Positions 51,840 to 56,990 of a DNA stretch of 57,266 nt are shown piece by piece. The first letter of the stretch is position 1. Each line of letters begins with the position of its first letter. The translations under genes were made by a program, and so were the position numbers. The notes under the pieces were generated by a model, which had not been told where the DNA came from, ran no database searches, and worked only from the letters and a program-made list of their open reading frames with translations. This DNA is from Clostridia bacterium (GTDB taxonomy: Bacteria > Bacillota > Clostridia > Oscillospirales > Acutalibacteraceae): positions 1 through 57,266 of the forward strand of contig JAFVIF010000041.1 in NCBI GenBank assembly GCA_017474125.1, read 5' to 3'.

Positions 51840-52934
51840 TCATAAAGGAATCTCCTTGTTATAGAGCTCTCGTTCGTGCATCGCTTGGCGCACCTTATGT
51901 TCATAGATTTTACGGCAGAGGTCTATTGCGATCATTTCGGCAGCAACGCATTTATATTCGTGCTTTTCGGCATTGTATTCTGTAATGAATGCAATCAGTT
52001 CTTCACCTTGCATAACTGCCGCACCAATAGCGGGTGGATCCCCTAATCCATCAATAGAACTTACGATGATATTATCCGGTGCGAGTGGCGACACCTTCAC
52101 TTCATCGCAGGTAAATCCACCATTTTTATCTGGAATTCTTAGTTCGGCCTTTCCGCTATCTATATCATCAAACAATCGGAGTTTCACCTGCATATCAGGG
52201 TCTTTTAAGAATTCTTGACCTTCGTAGAACATACCATAAATACCTGTAGGCATCGCGCCCATAACAAAAGCAAATGCTCCATTATCATCCACAGCCTCAA
52301 TATTGAAGTATTGTTCGGTATCCTCATCGTTAAACGCCGCAAAATAACCTTCGCTTGTGGCAAAACAAAGTACGCTTTCGCTCATCTTAGTCTCACCGTT
52401 TTCTTTATACTTGGCAAAATCGCAGATTCGATTGCACCAGTAAAACTTTTCTCTTTTATAATCAACTGGTTCCACGGATATGTCCTTCTTTAAAAAGAAA
52501 TTTTTAATGTTTGTCTTATCCGGCAAAACATTGTATAACAACCACAAACAAACCGTCGCTAAGAAAAGTAACAACGCGTAAATCAAGTGCCCCATATGCG
52601 GTTTAACAAAACCAGTGGCAATATTGGTTATCCAACTGTAAGCCGCAGATGTTGCTCCACATAACGCTACACTATCCAATAATAACAAGCCAAGCAATCC
52701 TATTGTCTTAACCGAAGATTTAATTTTGCTTAACATCAAACCAAGTAACACAAGCGGAGTAAGCAGCATAACTCCACCCCACGGAGAAAACTCAACTAAG
52801 TTGTATCCCTTAACAATCAAATTGCAGGCTTCACCATCGGTTATGTTGGTGCTGTATATGGGCAGAAATAGAGATGCGATAGCGAATAATGACAATATTA
52901 TTGCGAGCACACTAAAAAGTTTTCGTACCATCAT
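51840..52934 (-). CDS. Membrane protein with degenerate protease-like cytoplasmic/extracytoplasmic tail
   Basis: The 364 residues have four hydrophobic segments in the first 145 (near 7-29, 53-72, 77-98, 118-138) and a soluble part of about 210 residues. Near 300-330 the stretch IDGLGDPPAIGAAVMQGEELIAFITEY resembles the G-x-S-G-S-P-I...G-x-L-I-G-x-V-T strand of S1/S55 serine proteases, but the Ser is absent, so it would be inactive. Two nucleotides after the beta-helix gene, therefore in one operon controlled by the shared WYL-type site at 53584-53598. Function unknown. Confidence 0.7.
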   Translation of the reverse strand: MMVRKLFSVLAIILSLFAIASLFLPIYSTNITDGEACNLIVKGYNLVEFSPWGGVMLLTPLVLLGLMLSKIKSSVKTIGLLGLLLLDSVALCGATSAAYSWITNIATGFVKPHMGHLIYALLLFLATVCLWLLYNVLPDKTNIKNFFLKKDISVEPVDYKREKFYWCNRICDFAKYKENGETKMSESVLCFATSEGYFAAFNDEDTEQYFNIEAVDDNGAFAFVMGAMPTGIYGMFYEGQEFLKDPDMQVKLRLFDDIDSGKAELRIPDKNGGFTCDEVKVSPLAPDNIIVSSIDGLGDPPAIGAAVMQGEELIAFITEYNAEKHEYKCVAAEMIAIDLCRKIYEHKVRQAMHERELYNKEIPL

Positions 52935-52936
52935 TT

Positions 52937-53530
52937 TTAGATAGTCTCCCCTGCGATAGTGGTACAGTTGTCAAAATGACAACTCTCGTAATCCAAATTA
53001 TCGACCCTAACTGTGCGAAATGAAGAAAGCGGTTTAAAATAATAGCAATGGCACAGTTCGTTATCTTCGCTTTCTACCTGGCAGTCAATAAATTTACAAT
53101 CAACTACCATCTCAACCTCGTGTTTCTTTCCGTAACCGGACCAAATGACATATCCCTGATCGCCAAGCGCCGTAATGGTTTCAAATGTGCAACCTTTTGC
53201 TTGTCCGTGACTGTCAATGGTGAGAAAGGGACCGTCTGAGCAGCACTCTTTGAATAGGCAACCATAAAAGTTTGTTCGTGCACCGTTTACTGTACAAACA
53301 TTTTTGAAATTGCAGTTCTTAATCTGACAACTCTCAAACGAAACTGTTTGGCAGTTCTCAAATGTGCAGTTCTCGAAAATGGTGTTTTCTACGCATAAGT
53401 GACCAAAGTTGCGGAAGGTTGTATCTGTTACTACCTTGCCTTGCGAGAAATATACTTCGCCGAGTGTGTTTTCGGGCTTAACGCCGTTTTCCAAAGCGAG
53501 CTCTCTGTTGTTTTTGTAATCGATAATCAT
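52937..53530 (-). CDS. Right-handed parallel beta-helix protein
   Basis: The 197 residues contain short repeats of Phe/Asn/Cys pattern (NTIFENCTFENC, CQIKNCNFKN, CLFKECC, CKFIDCQVE, YESCHFDNC) forming about five to seven coils. Many Cys residues lie at equivalent positions. No signal peptide. Such cytoplasmic beta-helix proteins are common in accessory regions and their partners are unknown. It opens the operon with the four-helix membrane protein and has a WYL-type promoter site upstream. A degenerate relative lies at 54316-54792. Confidence 0.72.
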   Translation of the reverse strand: MIIDYKNNRELALENGVKPENTLGEVYFSQGKVVTDTTFRNFGHLCVENTIFENCTFENCQTVSFESCQIKNCNFKNVCTVNGARTNFYGCLFKECCSDGPFLTIDSHGQAKGCTFETITALGDQGYVIWSGYGKKHEVEMVVDCKFIDCQVESEDNELCHCYYFKPLSSFRTVRVDNLDYESCHFDNCTTIAGETI

Positions 53531-53583
53531 AAAAATATCCTCCTGTGAGTTTTAGTTTGTAACCAAATTATACTCTCACAGGA

Positions 53584-53598
53584 GGACAAATGTATGTC
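53584..53598 (-). promoter_or_regulatory. GACA-N6-TGTC site, copy 1 (before the beta-helix operon)
   Basis: GGACA-N6-TGTC; the minus-strand -10 TATAAT (53567-53572) starts 12 nt after TGTC. An 11-bp inverted repeat CCTCCTGTGAG/CTCACAGGAGG flanks that -10 box and includes the ribosome site. Confidence 0.65.
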
Positions 53599-53614
53599 TT
53601 TGTTAAATTATATT

Positions 53615-53950
53615 TTAGCGTTGTTCTAATGCGAGGAACAGAGCGATGTAGCAGGCGAAGTCGCCTTTAGCTTTTCGGTCTGGCATTATTCCATCGATGC
53701 CTTCTATTCCAAGGTTTCTGCATACAGCTCCAAGACTGGACATATAGGAGTCGTGTTTGATACTTCGACTTCTATCTCTTTCCATTCGCTCAGATAGTTC
53801 CATGAAATTCCACTCGGTTCGCGTTTCAGCATAACTCACGGCGGATTTCAAAAAACCATTGTAAAAGTCATCAAAGCCGGGTCGTGTGTCGTTTTTAGCT
53901 TTGGTTTTGATTTCATCATACAATCTTTTTGCAATTTCATATTGTAGCAT
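53615..53950 (-). CDS. Conserved-looking small protein, unknown
   Basis: The 111 residues are mostly helical, with QYEIAKRLYDEIKTKAK, RPGFDDFYNGFLKSAVSYAETR and CYIALFLALEQR. ATG 53950 follows GAGGTTGA. Bicistronic neighbours have the same promoter motif (53993-54007). No family recognised. Confidence 0.55.
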   Translation of the reverse strand: MLQYEIAKRLYDEIKTKAKNDTRPGFDDFYNGFLKSAVSYAETRTEWNFMELSERMERDRSRSIKHDSYMSSLGAVCRNLGIEGIDGIMPDRKAKGDFACYIALFLALEQR

Positions 53951-53992
53951 TGCAATCAACCTCACTTTCAACGTTATTATATTATAACTTTC

Positions 53993-54007
53993 GGACAAAT
54001 GGGTGTC
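53993..54007 (-). promoter_or_regulatory. GACA-N6-TGTC site, copy 2
   Basis: GGACAAATGGGTGTC; minus-strand -10 TATAAT at 53976-53981, again 12 nt from TGTC. Serves the 53615-53950 gene. Confidence 0.65.
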
Positions 54008-54011
54008 TTTC

Positions 54012-54224
54012 TTAAATTTGATTCTTCAGTTTTTCTTTAAGTTCCTGAAAATCCTGTTCAGTAATAGCACCGCGTTCTTTGAGACGGTATAAACGCTCAA
54101 TATTATCAATCGCATCCACACCATATTTCGCACGTTTCTTGCGCTTGTGGTTTTCAATTTTATCCGACAACCACCGAGTCAATGCAGGAACTGTAGACAA
54201 AAACTTTCCGTGTTCTGTTGACAT
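54012..54224 (-). CDS. SHOCT-domain small protein
   Basis: The 70 residues end in a SHOCT-like helix pair (NIERLYRLKERGAITEQDFQELK, about 42-68), a short C-terminal oligomerisation module found in many phage and membrane-stress proteins. The N-terminal half is basic. ATG 54224 follows GGAGGG by 7 nt (54227 is also possible). Own promoter with motif at 54297-54311. Role unknown. Confidence 0.7.
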   Translation of the reverse strand: MSTEHGKFLSTVPALTRWLSDKIENHKRKKRAKYGVDAIDNIERLYRLKERGAITEQDFQELKEKLKNQI

Positions 54225-54296
54225 CATAACACCCTCCAAAAGAACGTCCCCTTAGGACGTATTCTTAGATTATGCTCTAATTATACTTTCCCAAGG

Positions 54297-54311
54297 GGAC
54301 ATATGGGTGTC
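54297..54311 (-). promoter_or_regulatory. GACA-N6-TGTC site, copy 3
   Basis: GGACATATGGGTGTC; minus-strand -10 TATAAT at 54280-54285, 12 nt from TGTC. An 8-bp inverted repeat GTCCCCTT/AAGGGGAC surrounds this -10. Confidence 0.65.
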
Positions 54312-54315
54312 TATA

Positions 54316-54792
54316 TTAAATTTTACCTTTTATGACATTTATCATATCAAGACCTGTGCAGGTGTTTTTATCGATAATCTCACTTTGATAAGATGTTTTT
54401 AAAAAGCCCCATCCATCTTCTTTCTCGTAATTACTAAGCATCATATCAACTCTGTCCGTAAATATATTTATAAACGTGCTATTAACAATCTCGCAACAGC
54501 CGAATGCATTAAATAAAAATGCTTCATTTTTTAATGATATATTTTCGAAAATAGAATCTTCAATCGTTACATTCTCTAAAACAAAAACCTCATCCAAGCC
54601 ATCAAAGTTAGACTCGATATTTTTAAAATGTGATTTACTGACCTTAACACTTTCGAAGTCAAACGAAACAATATTTTCAAAAATGCAATCAACTACATAA
54701 ATATGACCTTTATCACCATAATAATCATCTATAGAAACATTATGACATTTTTCAAAAGTGCAATTTTGAATAATAGTTGCAACAATACGCAA
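54316..54792 (-). pseudogene. 5'-truncated beta-helix gene remnant
   Basis: The 158-residue frame has beta-helix repeats (QNCTFEKCHNVS, VVDCIFENIVSF, HFKNIES, SIFENIS, NSTFINIF) like the protein at 52937-53530 but lacks its first 60 residues. It can start only at TTG 54792 with no clear ribosome site and a stop lies just upstream. It follows the WYL regulator. May be expressed as a shorter protein. Confidence 0.5.
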
Positions 54793-54799
54793 GGAAATC

Positions 54800-54974
54800 T
54801 TTTGAATTGTTTGCTATTGGAATCATACCATAAATAGCATCTTATTTGGTTTTGTACGGTTGGCCATTGAGAAATATTGATGTCTATATAACCGTTTTTG
54901 GTTTAACTTGCATCAATATCACCATATTGTACGGTTCCAATTTTATTATTGTTCCAAAATAAGTTAATATCCAT
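54800..54974 (-). pseudogene. Small remnant reading frame with internal stop
   Basis: From ATG 54974 (inside the end of the WYL gene, GAGGT upstream) a 23-residue frame MDINLFWNNNKIGT... stops at TAA 54903-54905; the same frame continues in phase with NGYIDINISQWPTVQNQIRC, suggesting a once longer protein. Unrecognised family. The beta-helix remnant begins in another frame further downstream. Confidence 0.35.
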
Positions 54975-55938
54975 TGTAAACCTCAATTAGATTTTTAATT
55001 TCTTCTTTTATCTCCTCCACCAAATCAGGTGGCTCAGTAACCTTCACCCAAGCACCTTGGCTTAGGAGCCACATCTTGATGCCATCGCCATAAACTTCTG
55101 CTTCGATAAGATACTTATTTCCGCTAAGACGCTCAATGATTTTTGCGGTTGGGAGTTTATCTAAAACAGCTTGAACGGAAGGACCCGAGAATTCGAATCT
55201 AATTGTTCTAAGTTCGCCCGGCCACATAAACAGACTTCGTTTTCGAAGTTCTCCCTCGTCAAAGTTGGGGATGTCGCTGGCTTCAAACGTTTTTCGATGT
55301 TCGGTTACATTTTTAATTCGATCAAGTCGGAAATAATACGGCTTTTCTGTTTTACCTTCACTCATAAATGCAATAAGGTAAAAATAATAATCTGTAAACA
55401 TTACCGACGCCGGTCGTAGGCGATGTGTTACCCATTTGCGGTCCATTCGGTAATACTCAATGGATATTTCTTTTTTCTCGGTTATACAATTTATAATCTG
55501 CCATAGTCTATCTTGAACGCTCTCACAATCGTGTTTCACTTCAGGGTAGTGATACAGTTCTTTACGGATAAGCTCGGCAAGTTTTGGTCTATCTTCGCCC
55601 GTAGTAAAGCGTTTTAGTTTATCAACTAAAATCAGAAGCTCATCCCGTGAAAAAGCGCGTGCACCAATCATAACCTCTACCAGCGCAAAAAGCTCTTTGC
55701 TGCTTAAAAACTCATCCATAAAAAGTCGGTAGCATTTATCCTTGTGTGAGTATTCAAGCTCGGTATTACCGACAAGCTCGCGGTTATCAGCAAGAAATGC
55801 CTTTAAATCCGAAATGCTGCGGCTGACACTTTTTGTTGATACGCCATATTCATCCGCTAATTTTTGAACCGATATATCTTCACCGCGAAGAGCGCGGAAG
55901 AAAATCTCTAAAACCCTATATTGTTTTGTATTTTTCAA
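54964..55938 (-). CDS. WYL-domain transcriptional regulator (HTH_11 + WYL)
   Basis: The 324 residues comprise an HTH_11 domain at the N-terminus (QYRVLEIFFRALRGEDISVQ, VSTKSVSRSISDL), a linker, and a WYL domain (about 140-235, with DYYFYLIA in place of the W-Y-L core), then the WCX-type C-terminus (ELRTIRFEFSG, WLLSQGAWVKVTEP). WYL regulators sense nucleic acids or nucleotides and often control defence or DNA-damage islands. A TTG start at 55938 is supported by GGCGGTGAT just before it; GTG 55986 is an alternative. Its own promoter carries the island's shared site (55980-55994). Confidence 0.85.
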   Translation of the reverse strand: MKNTKQYRVLEIFFRALRGEDISVQKLADEYGVSTKSVSRSISDLKAFLADNRELVGNTELEYSHKDKCYRLFMDEFLSSKELFALVEVMIGARAFSRDELLILVDKLKRFTTGEDRPKLAELIRKELYHYPEVKHDCESVQDRLWQIINCITEKKEISIEYYRMDRKWVTHRLRPASVMFTDYYFYLIAFMSEGKTEKPYYFRLDRIKNVTEHRKTFEASDIPNFDEGELRKRSLFMWPGELRTIRFEFSGPSVQAVLDKLPTAKIIERLSGNKYLIEAEVYGDGIKMWLLSQGAWVKVTEPPDLVEEIKEEIKNLIEVYNGY

Positions 55939-55979
55939 AATATCACCGCCTTTGTGATTCCATTTTATTAAATCACTTA

Positions 55980-55994
55980 GACACACCCTTGTCC
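55980..55994 (-). promoter_or_regulatory. GACA-N6-TGTC site, copy 4 (before the WYL regulator)
   Basis: Minus strand GGACA-AGGGTG-TGTC, then exactly 12 nt, then TAAAAT (55962-55967). GTGATT/AATCAC inverted repeat surrounds the -10. Confidence 0.65.
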
Positions 55995-56011
55995 AGTTAA
56001 ATAATTAAAAT

Positions 56012-56185
56012 AAAAAATGCGCAGCCCCGCAAAGGACTACGCACGAAAATCATACCCTCTGCTGTTTAAGGTTGCTGGACACTTAAATTAAACTTTGTTG
56101 CAAAGTCAGTCAGTGGGTATGGTTTTACCAGAGCTTTCTTTGCAACAACAAATTACAATATCCCATCCTAATTTAAGTATCCAGC
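56012..56185 (-). ncRNA. Structured ncRNA with own promoter, terminator and predicted pseudoknot
   Basis: Minus strand. Promoter TTGAAA-17-TATAAT at 56192-56220 puts the first base at about 56185, the first base of stem P1 (17 bp, one mismatch, GCTGGATAC...). Inside, P2 pairs TTGTTGCAAAG with CTTTGCAACAA, enclosing a 32-nt loop. That loop's AAAACCATACCCACTG can pair 14 of 16 bases with CAGCAGAGGGTATGATTTT located after P1, giving a long pseudoknot. A GC-rich terminator (56018-56043) and T6 end it. I do not recognise a known family. Confidence 0.65.
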
Positions 56186-56191
56186 ATAATC

Positions 56192-56220
56192 ATTATATCA
56201 TATTGAGGTTTTGTTTTCAA
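56192..56220 (-). promoter_or_regulatory. Promoter of the structured ncRNA
   Basis: Minus strand: TTGAAA (56215-56220), 17-nt spacer, TATAAT (56192-56197). Confidence 0.78.
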
Positions 56221-56720: not shown

Positions 56721-56775
56721 CAAATCACCGCCTTAAGCGTAGTATAGCATAAAAGCGGTGGAGGGGCAAGTGAAA

Positions 56776-56949
56776 ATGAAATATGGCTTCGCCATATGAA
56801 ATAATCCTTGCGGATTATGAAATATTTTGCCGTTGGCAAAATGTGAAATACAATTCGTTCCTTCATATGCCGTAGGCATATTTCATACGCAAAGCGTATT
56901 TCATATGGCGTGGCAATATTTCACTCGTTCCGCAAGGAACGAATTTCAT
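56776..56949. repeat. Hairpin array with ATGAAAT/ATTTCAT separators, copy 2
   Basis: Four ATGAAAT-type separators (three exact, one GTGAAAT) in the left half and four ATTTCAT-type (three exact, one ATTTCAC) in the right half, with a perfect hairpin between most of them: ATGGC/GCCAT, AATCC-ttgc-GGATT, ATTTTGCC/GGCAAAAT, ATGCC/GGCAT, ACGC/GCGT, TCGTTCC/GGAACGA. It abuts the tRNA terminator at 56951. Confidence 0.82.
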
Positions 56950-56950
56950 T

Positions 56951-56990
56951 GAAAAAGAAAAGACACGCTTTCGCGTGTCTTTTCTTTTTC
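56951..56990 (-). terminator. Terminator downstream of the tRNA-Asn remnant
   Basis: Eighteen-bp stem GAAAAAGAAAAGACACGC/GCGTGTCTTTTCTTTTTC with loop TTTC. Confidence 0.85.

Follow-up and report, generated by a model that had tools for sequence, protein, structure and literature searches.

Four minus-strand promoters within a 2.4-kb stretch of contig JAFVIF010000041.1 (assembly GCA_017474125.1; Clostridia bacterium of the gut, Acutalibacteraceae) carry the same palindrome, GACA-N6-TGTC, each copy ending exactly 12 nucleotides (nt) before the -10 box, and one of them precedes the gene for a regulator with a WYL domain. Positions 1 to 57,266 of the contig are referred to here as the window. The question raised by this locus is whether these promoters form a regulon of the WYL protein and, if so, whether the regulator activates or represses them. 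Our analysis indicates that the conserved regulatory architecture is real, that it very likely constitutes a WYL regulon, and that this regulon is most likely activator driven. Specifically, we consider it likely that a homodimer of the WYL protein binds GACA-N6-TGTC and activates its own gene, wyl, together with a local gene cassette, the site taking the place of the -35 box. The architecture is of a known type (WYL activators acting at -26/-35); the family and its regulon are new in Bacillota, there is evidence of a promoter code that extends beyond them, and no description of such a WYL regulon in Bacillota, or of WYL with Bunzi, was found in the open-access literature searched. The sites are as follows:

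55980..55993, minus strand: operator 4, GACAAGGGTGTGTC, preceding wyl
55962..55967, minus strand: -10 box TAAAAT of operator 4, 12 nt past TGTC
54298..54311, minus strand: operator 3, GACACCCATATGTC, preceding the SHOCT-like gene
54280..54285, minus strand: -10 box TATAAT of operator 3, 12 nt past TGTC
53994..54007, minus strand: operator 2, GACACCCATTTGTC, preceding the 111-amino-acid (aa) gene
53976..53981, minus strand: -10 box TATAAT of operator 2, 12 nt past TGTC
53585..53598, minus strand: operator 1, GACATACATTTGTC, preceding the beta-helix gene
53567..53572, minus strand: -10 box TATAAT of operator 1, 12 nt past TGTC

The initial annotation had reported GACA-N6-TGTC at these four places, and all four were recovered, its coordinates being one base off at one end. 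Its statement that a -10 hexamer (TATAAT three times, TAAAAT once) starts 12 nt after TGTC is exact, and the genes behind the sites (wyl, SHOCT, 111-aa, and the beta-helix/membrane-protein operon) are as it described them. A good -35 box is indeed lacking at all four promoters, where the best match to TTGACA at 16- to 18-bp spacing covers 1, 2, 2, and 3 of 6 positions. The extended -10 element (TGn) is absent from all four, unlike in many relatives. Shuffled versions of the window contain a mean of 0.28 palindromes, and only 1 of 100 reached the observed 4. When the palindrome was combined with the -10 box and up to 2 mismatches were allowed, 7 matches were obtained (each of the 4 sites, and 3 of these again in the opposite direction) versus a shuffle mean of 1.10, and none of 100 shuffles reached 7. 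The palindrome by itself is not in excess across the organism's own genome (2.0 Mb, 85.9% complete), which holds 12 copies versus 32 of the reversed pattern; among these 12, only the 4 in the window are followed by TANAAT at +12. Operator 4 was also considered as a bidirectional promoter, as its plus direction reads TGTC-N12-TAAAAT, but this TAAAAT is the terminator T-run of an upstream RNA, and the match was therefore treated as chance.

Conservation of the site was gauged in the loci of the best 80 of at least 388 relatives (L038 to L117), fetched with an alignment of the regulator and five same-family homologues. Loci with at least 43% identity over the best segment were classed as orthologous (n = 59) and those below as distant (n = 21). 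A clade-typical site occurs somewhere in 51 of the 59 orthologue loci (N6 at 12 nt in 42, N6 at 13 nt in 4, and N5 at 12 nt in 5), while the N6 form occurs in none of the 21 distant loci. This conservation with the regulator orthologues supports the candidate WYL regulon of the initial annotation, which had named the search upstream of homologues as a check. In the main group, the N6/12-nt form is present in 42 of 47 loci and, where at least 250 bp of upstream sequence is available, lies within 300 bp upstream of wyl in 34 of 45. Site form follows the regulator tree: an N13 sub-clade carries the longer spacing in 4 of 5 loci (L085, L088, L089, and L096; not L087), and the four are compatible with one origin (96/94) inside the N12 clade. 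In a Lachnospiraceae sub-clade, N6 sites are absent and eight GACA-N5-TGTC-N12 matches occur in 5 of 7 loci; the spacing between the half-sites thus shifted, with the downstream half staying where it was. Related forms, N5 or GAC-N7-GTC, do occur in a few distant loci. GAC-N7-GTC lies upstream of wyl in L105, L111, L113, and L116, with at least 4 of 6 positions of a -10 box at 12 or 13 nt, and under a stricter count, GACA-N5-TGTC is found in L097, L111, and L116 (12 nt) and L113 (13 nt). Because some loci are close kin (L047/L082, L071/L079, L073/L075, and L077/L078), locus counts are not independent events.

The distance between site and -10 box is rigid. Across the 80 relatives' loci and the window, with distances of 0 to 30 nt scored, 74 site-direction pairs with a -10 box (5 or 6 of 6 positions) lie at 11 to 13 nt; of these, 65 fall at 12 nt, 7 at 13 nt, and 2 at 11 nt. 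The next peaks, at 15 nt (20 pairs) and 17 nt (11 pairs), were rejected as separate spacings. Of the 20 pairs at 15 nt, 16 represent the other side of a palindrome whose -10 box stands at 12 nt; the hexamer is TACAAT in 12 of the 20, the other-strand reading of ATTGTA, a conserved element that precedes many Ruminococcus sites. Of the 11 pairs at 17 nt, 9 are a second reading of AT-rich sequence past a -10 box already at 12 nt. The Ruminococcus element, similar to ATTGTAAAT, precedes the palindrome by about 20 nt at many of these sites (e.g., L051, L052, L060, L062, and L065). Its other strand places TACAAT 15 nt from the palindrome; candidates for its role include an UP element, a divergent promoter, or the site of a second regulator.

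A promoter model was built from 61 sites in 43 loci, the window included, leaving out four second-direction matches (in the window, L038, L043, and L089); its consensus is CGGACATACGTATGTCCG plus an extended -10. Scanning 1.07 Mb with this model gave 88 matches of at least 12 bits, a number that includes training sites and reverse-direction matches, versus about 1 in Markov-resampled sequence. None of the 61 promoters matches TTGACA at 4 or more positions 16 to 18 bp from the -10 box, versus 15% of shuffles. Rigid spacing combined with a missing -35 box is read here as activator dependence.

The presumptive regulator is encoded within the same stretch:

54964..55938, minus strand: WYL regulator, 324 aa, TTG start; HTH_11, WYL, and WCX by Pfam

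It has the helix-turn-helix (HTH)-WYL-WCX architecture, with all three domains above their cutoffs (PF08279, 25.1 bits for a cutoff of 25; PF13280, 34.5 for 21.8; PF25583, 31.6 for 23.9). A single-sequence search of solved structures matched no WYL structure; a profile search then found DriD and PafBC. For the predicted structural model, DriD is the nearest solved structure (Foldseek E value of 5.7e-14), PafBC is matched at 8.0e-10, and BrxR and CapW are also among the nearest. WYL-domain residues R204 and R207 are invariant in 44 homologues, and the arginine motif aligns with those of DriD and PafBC. The HTH aligned too weakly in the profile comparison for recognition-helix residues to be matched up.

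To our knowledge, most WYL regulators have no known targets; four systems allow comparison. DriD of Caulobacter crescentus shares the HTH-WYL-WCX architecture, and its palindrome is described as having GAC/GTC halves that lie over a poor -35 box, with the distance to the -10 box held constant (PMC12340889). Upon alignment of the DriD promoters, the downstream half falls 12 nt before -12 in didA, CCNA_03891, and bapE (the last placed by hand). DriD differs in the separation of its halves, GAC-N7-GTC as opposed to GAC-N8-GTC here (N7 in the Lachnospiraceae sub-clade), and in being a homodimeric activator of DNA damage response genes rather than of a local cassette. PafBC, which acts by sigma adaptation in mycobacteria, has the same domains and a motif given as tTGTCRgtg-8nt-TAnnnT, which likewise places TGTC 12 nt before the -10 box in place of the -35 box (PMC5656591). 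However, PafBC acts as a heterodimer and its site is asymmetric, whereas a single protein and a palindrome are found here. SiwR of Mycobacterium smegmatis is reported to bind as a homodimer to an imperfect 19-bp palindrome that sits in the interval from -35 to -10; its -26 region is essential, and the WYL arginines are required (PMC10693628). SiwR is a homodimeric WYL activator, as proposed here, but differs in its conserved GGA at -26 and its two DinB-like targets. CapW, by contrast, is a repressor. It and BrxR resemble the present case in their related fold and in the placement of a WYL regulator by exchangeable defense genes. BrxR is likewise a repressor; its repeats measure 10 to 11 bp and are set 5 bp apart, and in E. 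fergusonii they are described as lying downstream of the -10 box (PMC9122601). In sum, the window shares with activators of the DriD/PafBC type an operator that overlies the -35 region with a fixed spacing to the -10 box (by sequence), a poor -35 box, a similar fold (as predicted), and the WYL arginines.

Beyond the orthologues, the exact N12/TATAAT pattern is present in 27 of 295 genomes of the order. Outside the window's own genome, 11 of 28 such loci hold a WYL homologue within ~1.5 kb, comprising two orthologues and nine members of a YafY-like WYL family encoded behind the site; among loci with 14- to 20-nt spacing, this is the case for 1 of 26 (Fisher p = 0.002). The WYL profile used for these counts was seeded with three of the loci (L119, L131, and L133); L119 was confirmed independently by Pfam (WYL at 81.7 bits, plus WCX and HTH_11), where the PafC HTH profile is also matched (38.7 bits for a cutoff of 32). 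Members of the YafY-like family with GACA-N6-TGTC-N12-TATAAT before their own gene are found at L119, L120, L127, L128, L130, L131, L133, L146, and L147. When the order was searched with a variable gap, 12 nt accounted for 27 of the 150 sites listed and 13 nt for 13, with a mean of 4.6 among those listed for each distance from 14 to 22 nt. A further 26 of the 150 form a peak at 7 nt, where GACA would be the end of a TTGACA -35 box with a 17-bp spacer.

The genes behind such sites in relatives bear on what is being regulated. The site precedes wyl itself in 40 loci. BnzB of Bunzi was identified with PADLOC in 8 of 8 scanned cluster members (E values of 2e-15 to 1e-127), lying within the wyl operon in L043, L072, and L085 and behind its own site in L045 and L059; the Bunzi assignment in relatives is known here from that one gene. 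TerB, which is described from Bunzi and Shango (PMC10952713), is also among the cargo, as are PDC-M09A/B-like proteins in L038 (the window's nearest relative) and L079, a PemK-family toxin in three loci (E value of 7e-11), and beta-helix, Sel1, and zinc-ribbon proteins. L064, a locus with TATCCT at its site, encodes GTPases of the dynamin-like and AIG1-like kinds that match LeoA in part, and L039, with a near-site, encodes an IetA-like AAA ATPase. Quick exchange of the cargo fits a defense role. The defense link drawn in the initial annotation holds for cargo in relatives (BnzB, PDC-M09-like, PemK, and dynamin-like proteins); the window's five cargo frames, whose defense role is putative, matched no defense family in PADLOC-DB 2.0.0, BnzB included.

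We propose that the WYL protein would bind GACA-N6-TGTC as a homodimer and activate transcription. The operator would cover the -35 region, with its downstream TGTC half, 12 nt before the -10 box, at the "-26" position; the bound protein may then substitute for the missing -35 box, allowing the housekeeping RNA polymerase to start at otherwise poor promoters. This would turn on wyl plus a local cassette of quickly exchanged genes, often of anti-phage type in relatives. By family analogy, the trigger may be single-stranded nucleic acid, probably single-stranded DNA (ssDNA), held in the WYL domain; PafBC is reported to be triggered by ssDNA (PMC11804915).

Several observations weigh against this proposal. 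TGn precedes the -10 box in 34 of 61 promoters, though in none of the window's four, and could permit activity without a -35 box. The nearest defense-linked relatives include repressors (BrxR, as described in PMC9122601), and autoregulation is common among repressors. Sequence identity between the regulator and DriD is 17 to 20%. Of the 59 orthologue loci, eight have no clade-typical site, namely three main-group near-sites (L039, L064, and L069, with one half-site mismatch, TATCCT, or TATTCT), two main-group loci that end at contig ends (L090 and L112), and three with none. No WYL homologue lies within ~1.5 kb of 17 of the 28 order-level N12 loci; the pattern alone is therefore no proof of a WYL promoter. 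Finally, BnzB occurs in 12 of 60 orthologue loci versus 3 of 21 distant ones and is thus not clearly enriched; as a mark of the motif clade, it was rejected as nonspecific.

The extended -10 would also suit a repressor that binds the same palindrome, blocks RNA polymerase at -35, and is released by ssDNA or another ligand in the style of BrxR and CapW. The operator before wyl itself, the proximity of the BrxR and CapW structures to the model, and the description of BrxR as a WYL repressor beside exchangeable defense genes (PMC9122601, PMC9122589) point the same way. However, a blocking operator need not hold one distance, yet 12 nt is kept across many genera while the core length varies, and -35 matches fall below chance. 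The repeats bound by BrxR of E. fergusonii lie downstream of the -10 box (PMC9122601), and repressor sites are therefore not tied to the -35 place. On balance, we regard repression as unlikely. The initial description of these promoters as activator-dependent or repressed can thus be narrowed to most likely activator-dependent, based on rigid spacing, sub-chance -35 matches, and the PafBC/DriD geometry. Recognition of the motif by a different DNA-binding protein or by an alternative sigma factor, with wyl as just one target, would accommodate the 17 order-level loci without a nearby WYL homologue. We judge this quite improbable, as the form of the site follows the wyl tree and also stands in front of the regulator gene in a second WYL family. 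A chance origin, or a recent duplication of one of the promoters within the locus, can practically be dismissed despite the similar cores of operators 2 and 3 (CCCATT and CCCATA), given that the spacers differ between sites, no fifth such promoter exists in the genome, and the geometry is kept across genera.

The broader implication is that if a fixed geometry recurs in several WYL families of Bacillota and coincides with the one used by two structurally solved activators of other phyla, regulons become legible from sequence, and how WYL proteins replace a -35 box becomes a directly testable question. A wider sample comprised 59 WYL loci (best matches only) from 59 genomes of the class and 61 of the phylum. 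Of 40 GAC-Nn-GTC/-10 pairs in these loci, 14 fall in the cells n = 7 to 8 and d = 12 to 13, where 0.67 would be expected for these four of 160 cells, based on the other cells; at least one of the 14, in L217 (1740), sits inside a WYL gene and probably arose by chance. Among the proteins encoded behind these sites are DJ-1/PfpI, DUF1706, GyrI/Cass2-like, zinc-ribbon, and PNPOx-like proteins, a member of the exonuclease family, and an HD protein whose match to Csm1_B is below cutoff. The last is found at L208 (~1130, minus strand; a genome of the phylum), where GAC-N7-GTC-N12-TATAAT near a WYL gene precedes the HD/Csm1_B protein. WYL control of a type III CRISPR system is possible there, and this distant locus may hold a switch over an HD/Csm1-like CRISPR gene. 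In gut Clostridia, the data point to a putative ssDNA-to-defense switch that would control cassettes of the Bunzi, PDC-M09-like, PemK, and dynamin-like kinds.

One type of XRE-family gene is present in 16 of 60 orthologue loci versus 0 of 21 distant loci. For 7 of the 16 XRE cluster genes tested, the -10 box of a site lies past the stop codon, ending 4 to 50 bp from it, and is directed into the convergent gene; in several loci, further genes lie in the direction of the promoter. The promoters are as follows:

L047:7535, L049:9567, L051:10562, L052:1594, L063:8994, L070:16229, and L088:1308 (N13): WYL-type promoters facing an XRE gene

From this arrangement, we propose an excludon-like switch in which the antisense promoter is a candidate control of a second regulator. 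A more general conjecture, to which we give an even chance, is that WYL activators across phyla share one code, GAC-N7/8-GTC with GTC 12 (13) nt before the -10 box in place of a -35 box, making regulons predictable, and that one family also drives excludon-like antisense transcription through a convergent XRE gene, silencing the second regulator during induction. As such a code would be legible from DNA alone, the regulons of unstudied WYL proteins, many of them defense regulators, would become predictable.

The window's own cargo frames are as follows:

54316..54792, minus strand: 158-aa frame behind wyl, without a convincing start or a PADLOC match
54012..54227, minus strand: SHOCT-like protein, 71 aa; PF09851 at 25.2 bits, below the 27-bit cutoff
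53615..53950, minus strand: 111-aa protein, without a Pfam or PADLOC match
52937..53530, minus strand: beta-helix/pentapeptide-like protein, 197 aa; PF13229 at 19.8 bits, below the 25.9-bit cutoff
51840..52934, minus strand: membrane protein, 364 aa, in the same operon as the beta-helix gene

The 158-aa frame is probably the remnant of a longer gene. For the 111-aa protein and the 364-aa membrane protein, no homologue was found in 199 other genomes of the family. NCBIfam HalA was rejected for the beta-helix protein, at 20.4 bits of the 250 required. Distant WYL homologues without an N6 site stand beside SHOCT-like C-termini and small Mor-like HTH proteins (assigned by eye) in L016 to L019; the WYL-SHOCT pairing may therefore be older than the GACA-N6-TGTC operator form. 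Just upstream of wyl, a strongly structured RNA with a terminator ends (56008-56195, minus strand; -64.7 kcal/mol, z score of -6.3), which is kept at the same place in L038 and L043. A 6S RNA was considered and rejected, as Rfam gave no match at the gathering score and weak ones below it. Two Gut-1 RNAs (RF01706) adjoin the locus, at 56768-56828 (plus strand; 51.6 bits) and 56875-56951 (minus strand; 65.1 bits).

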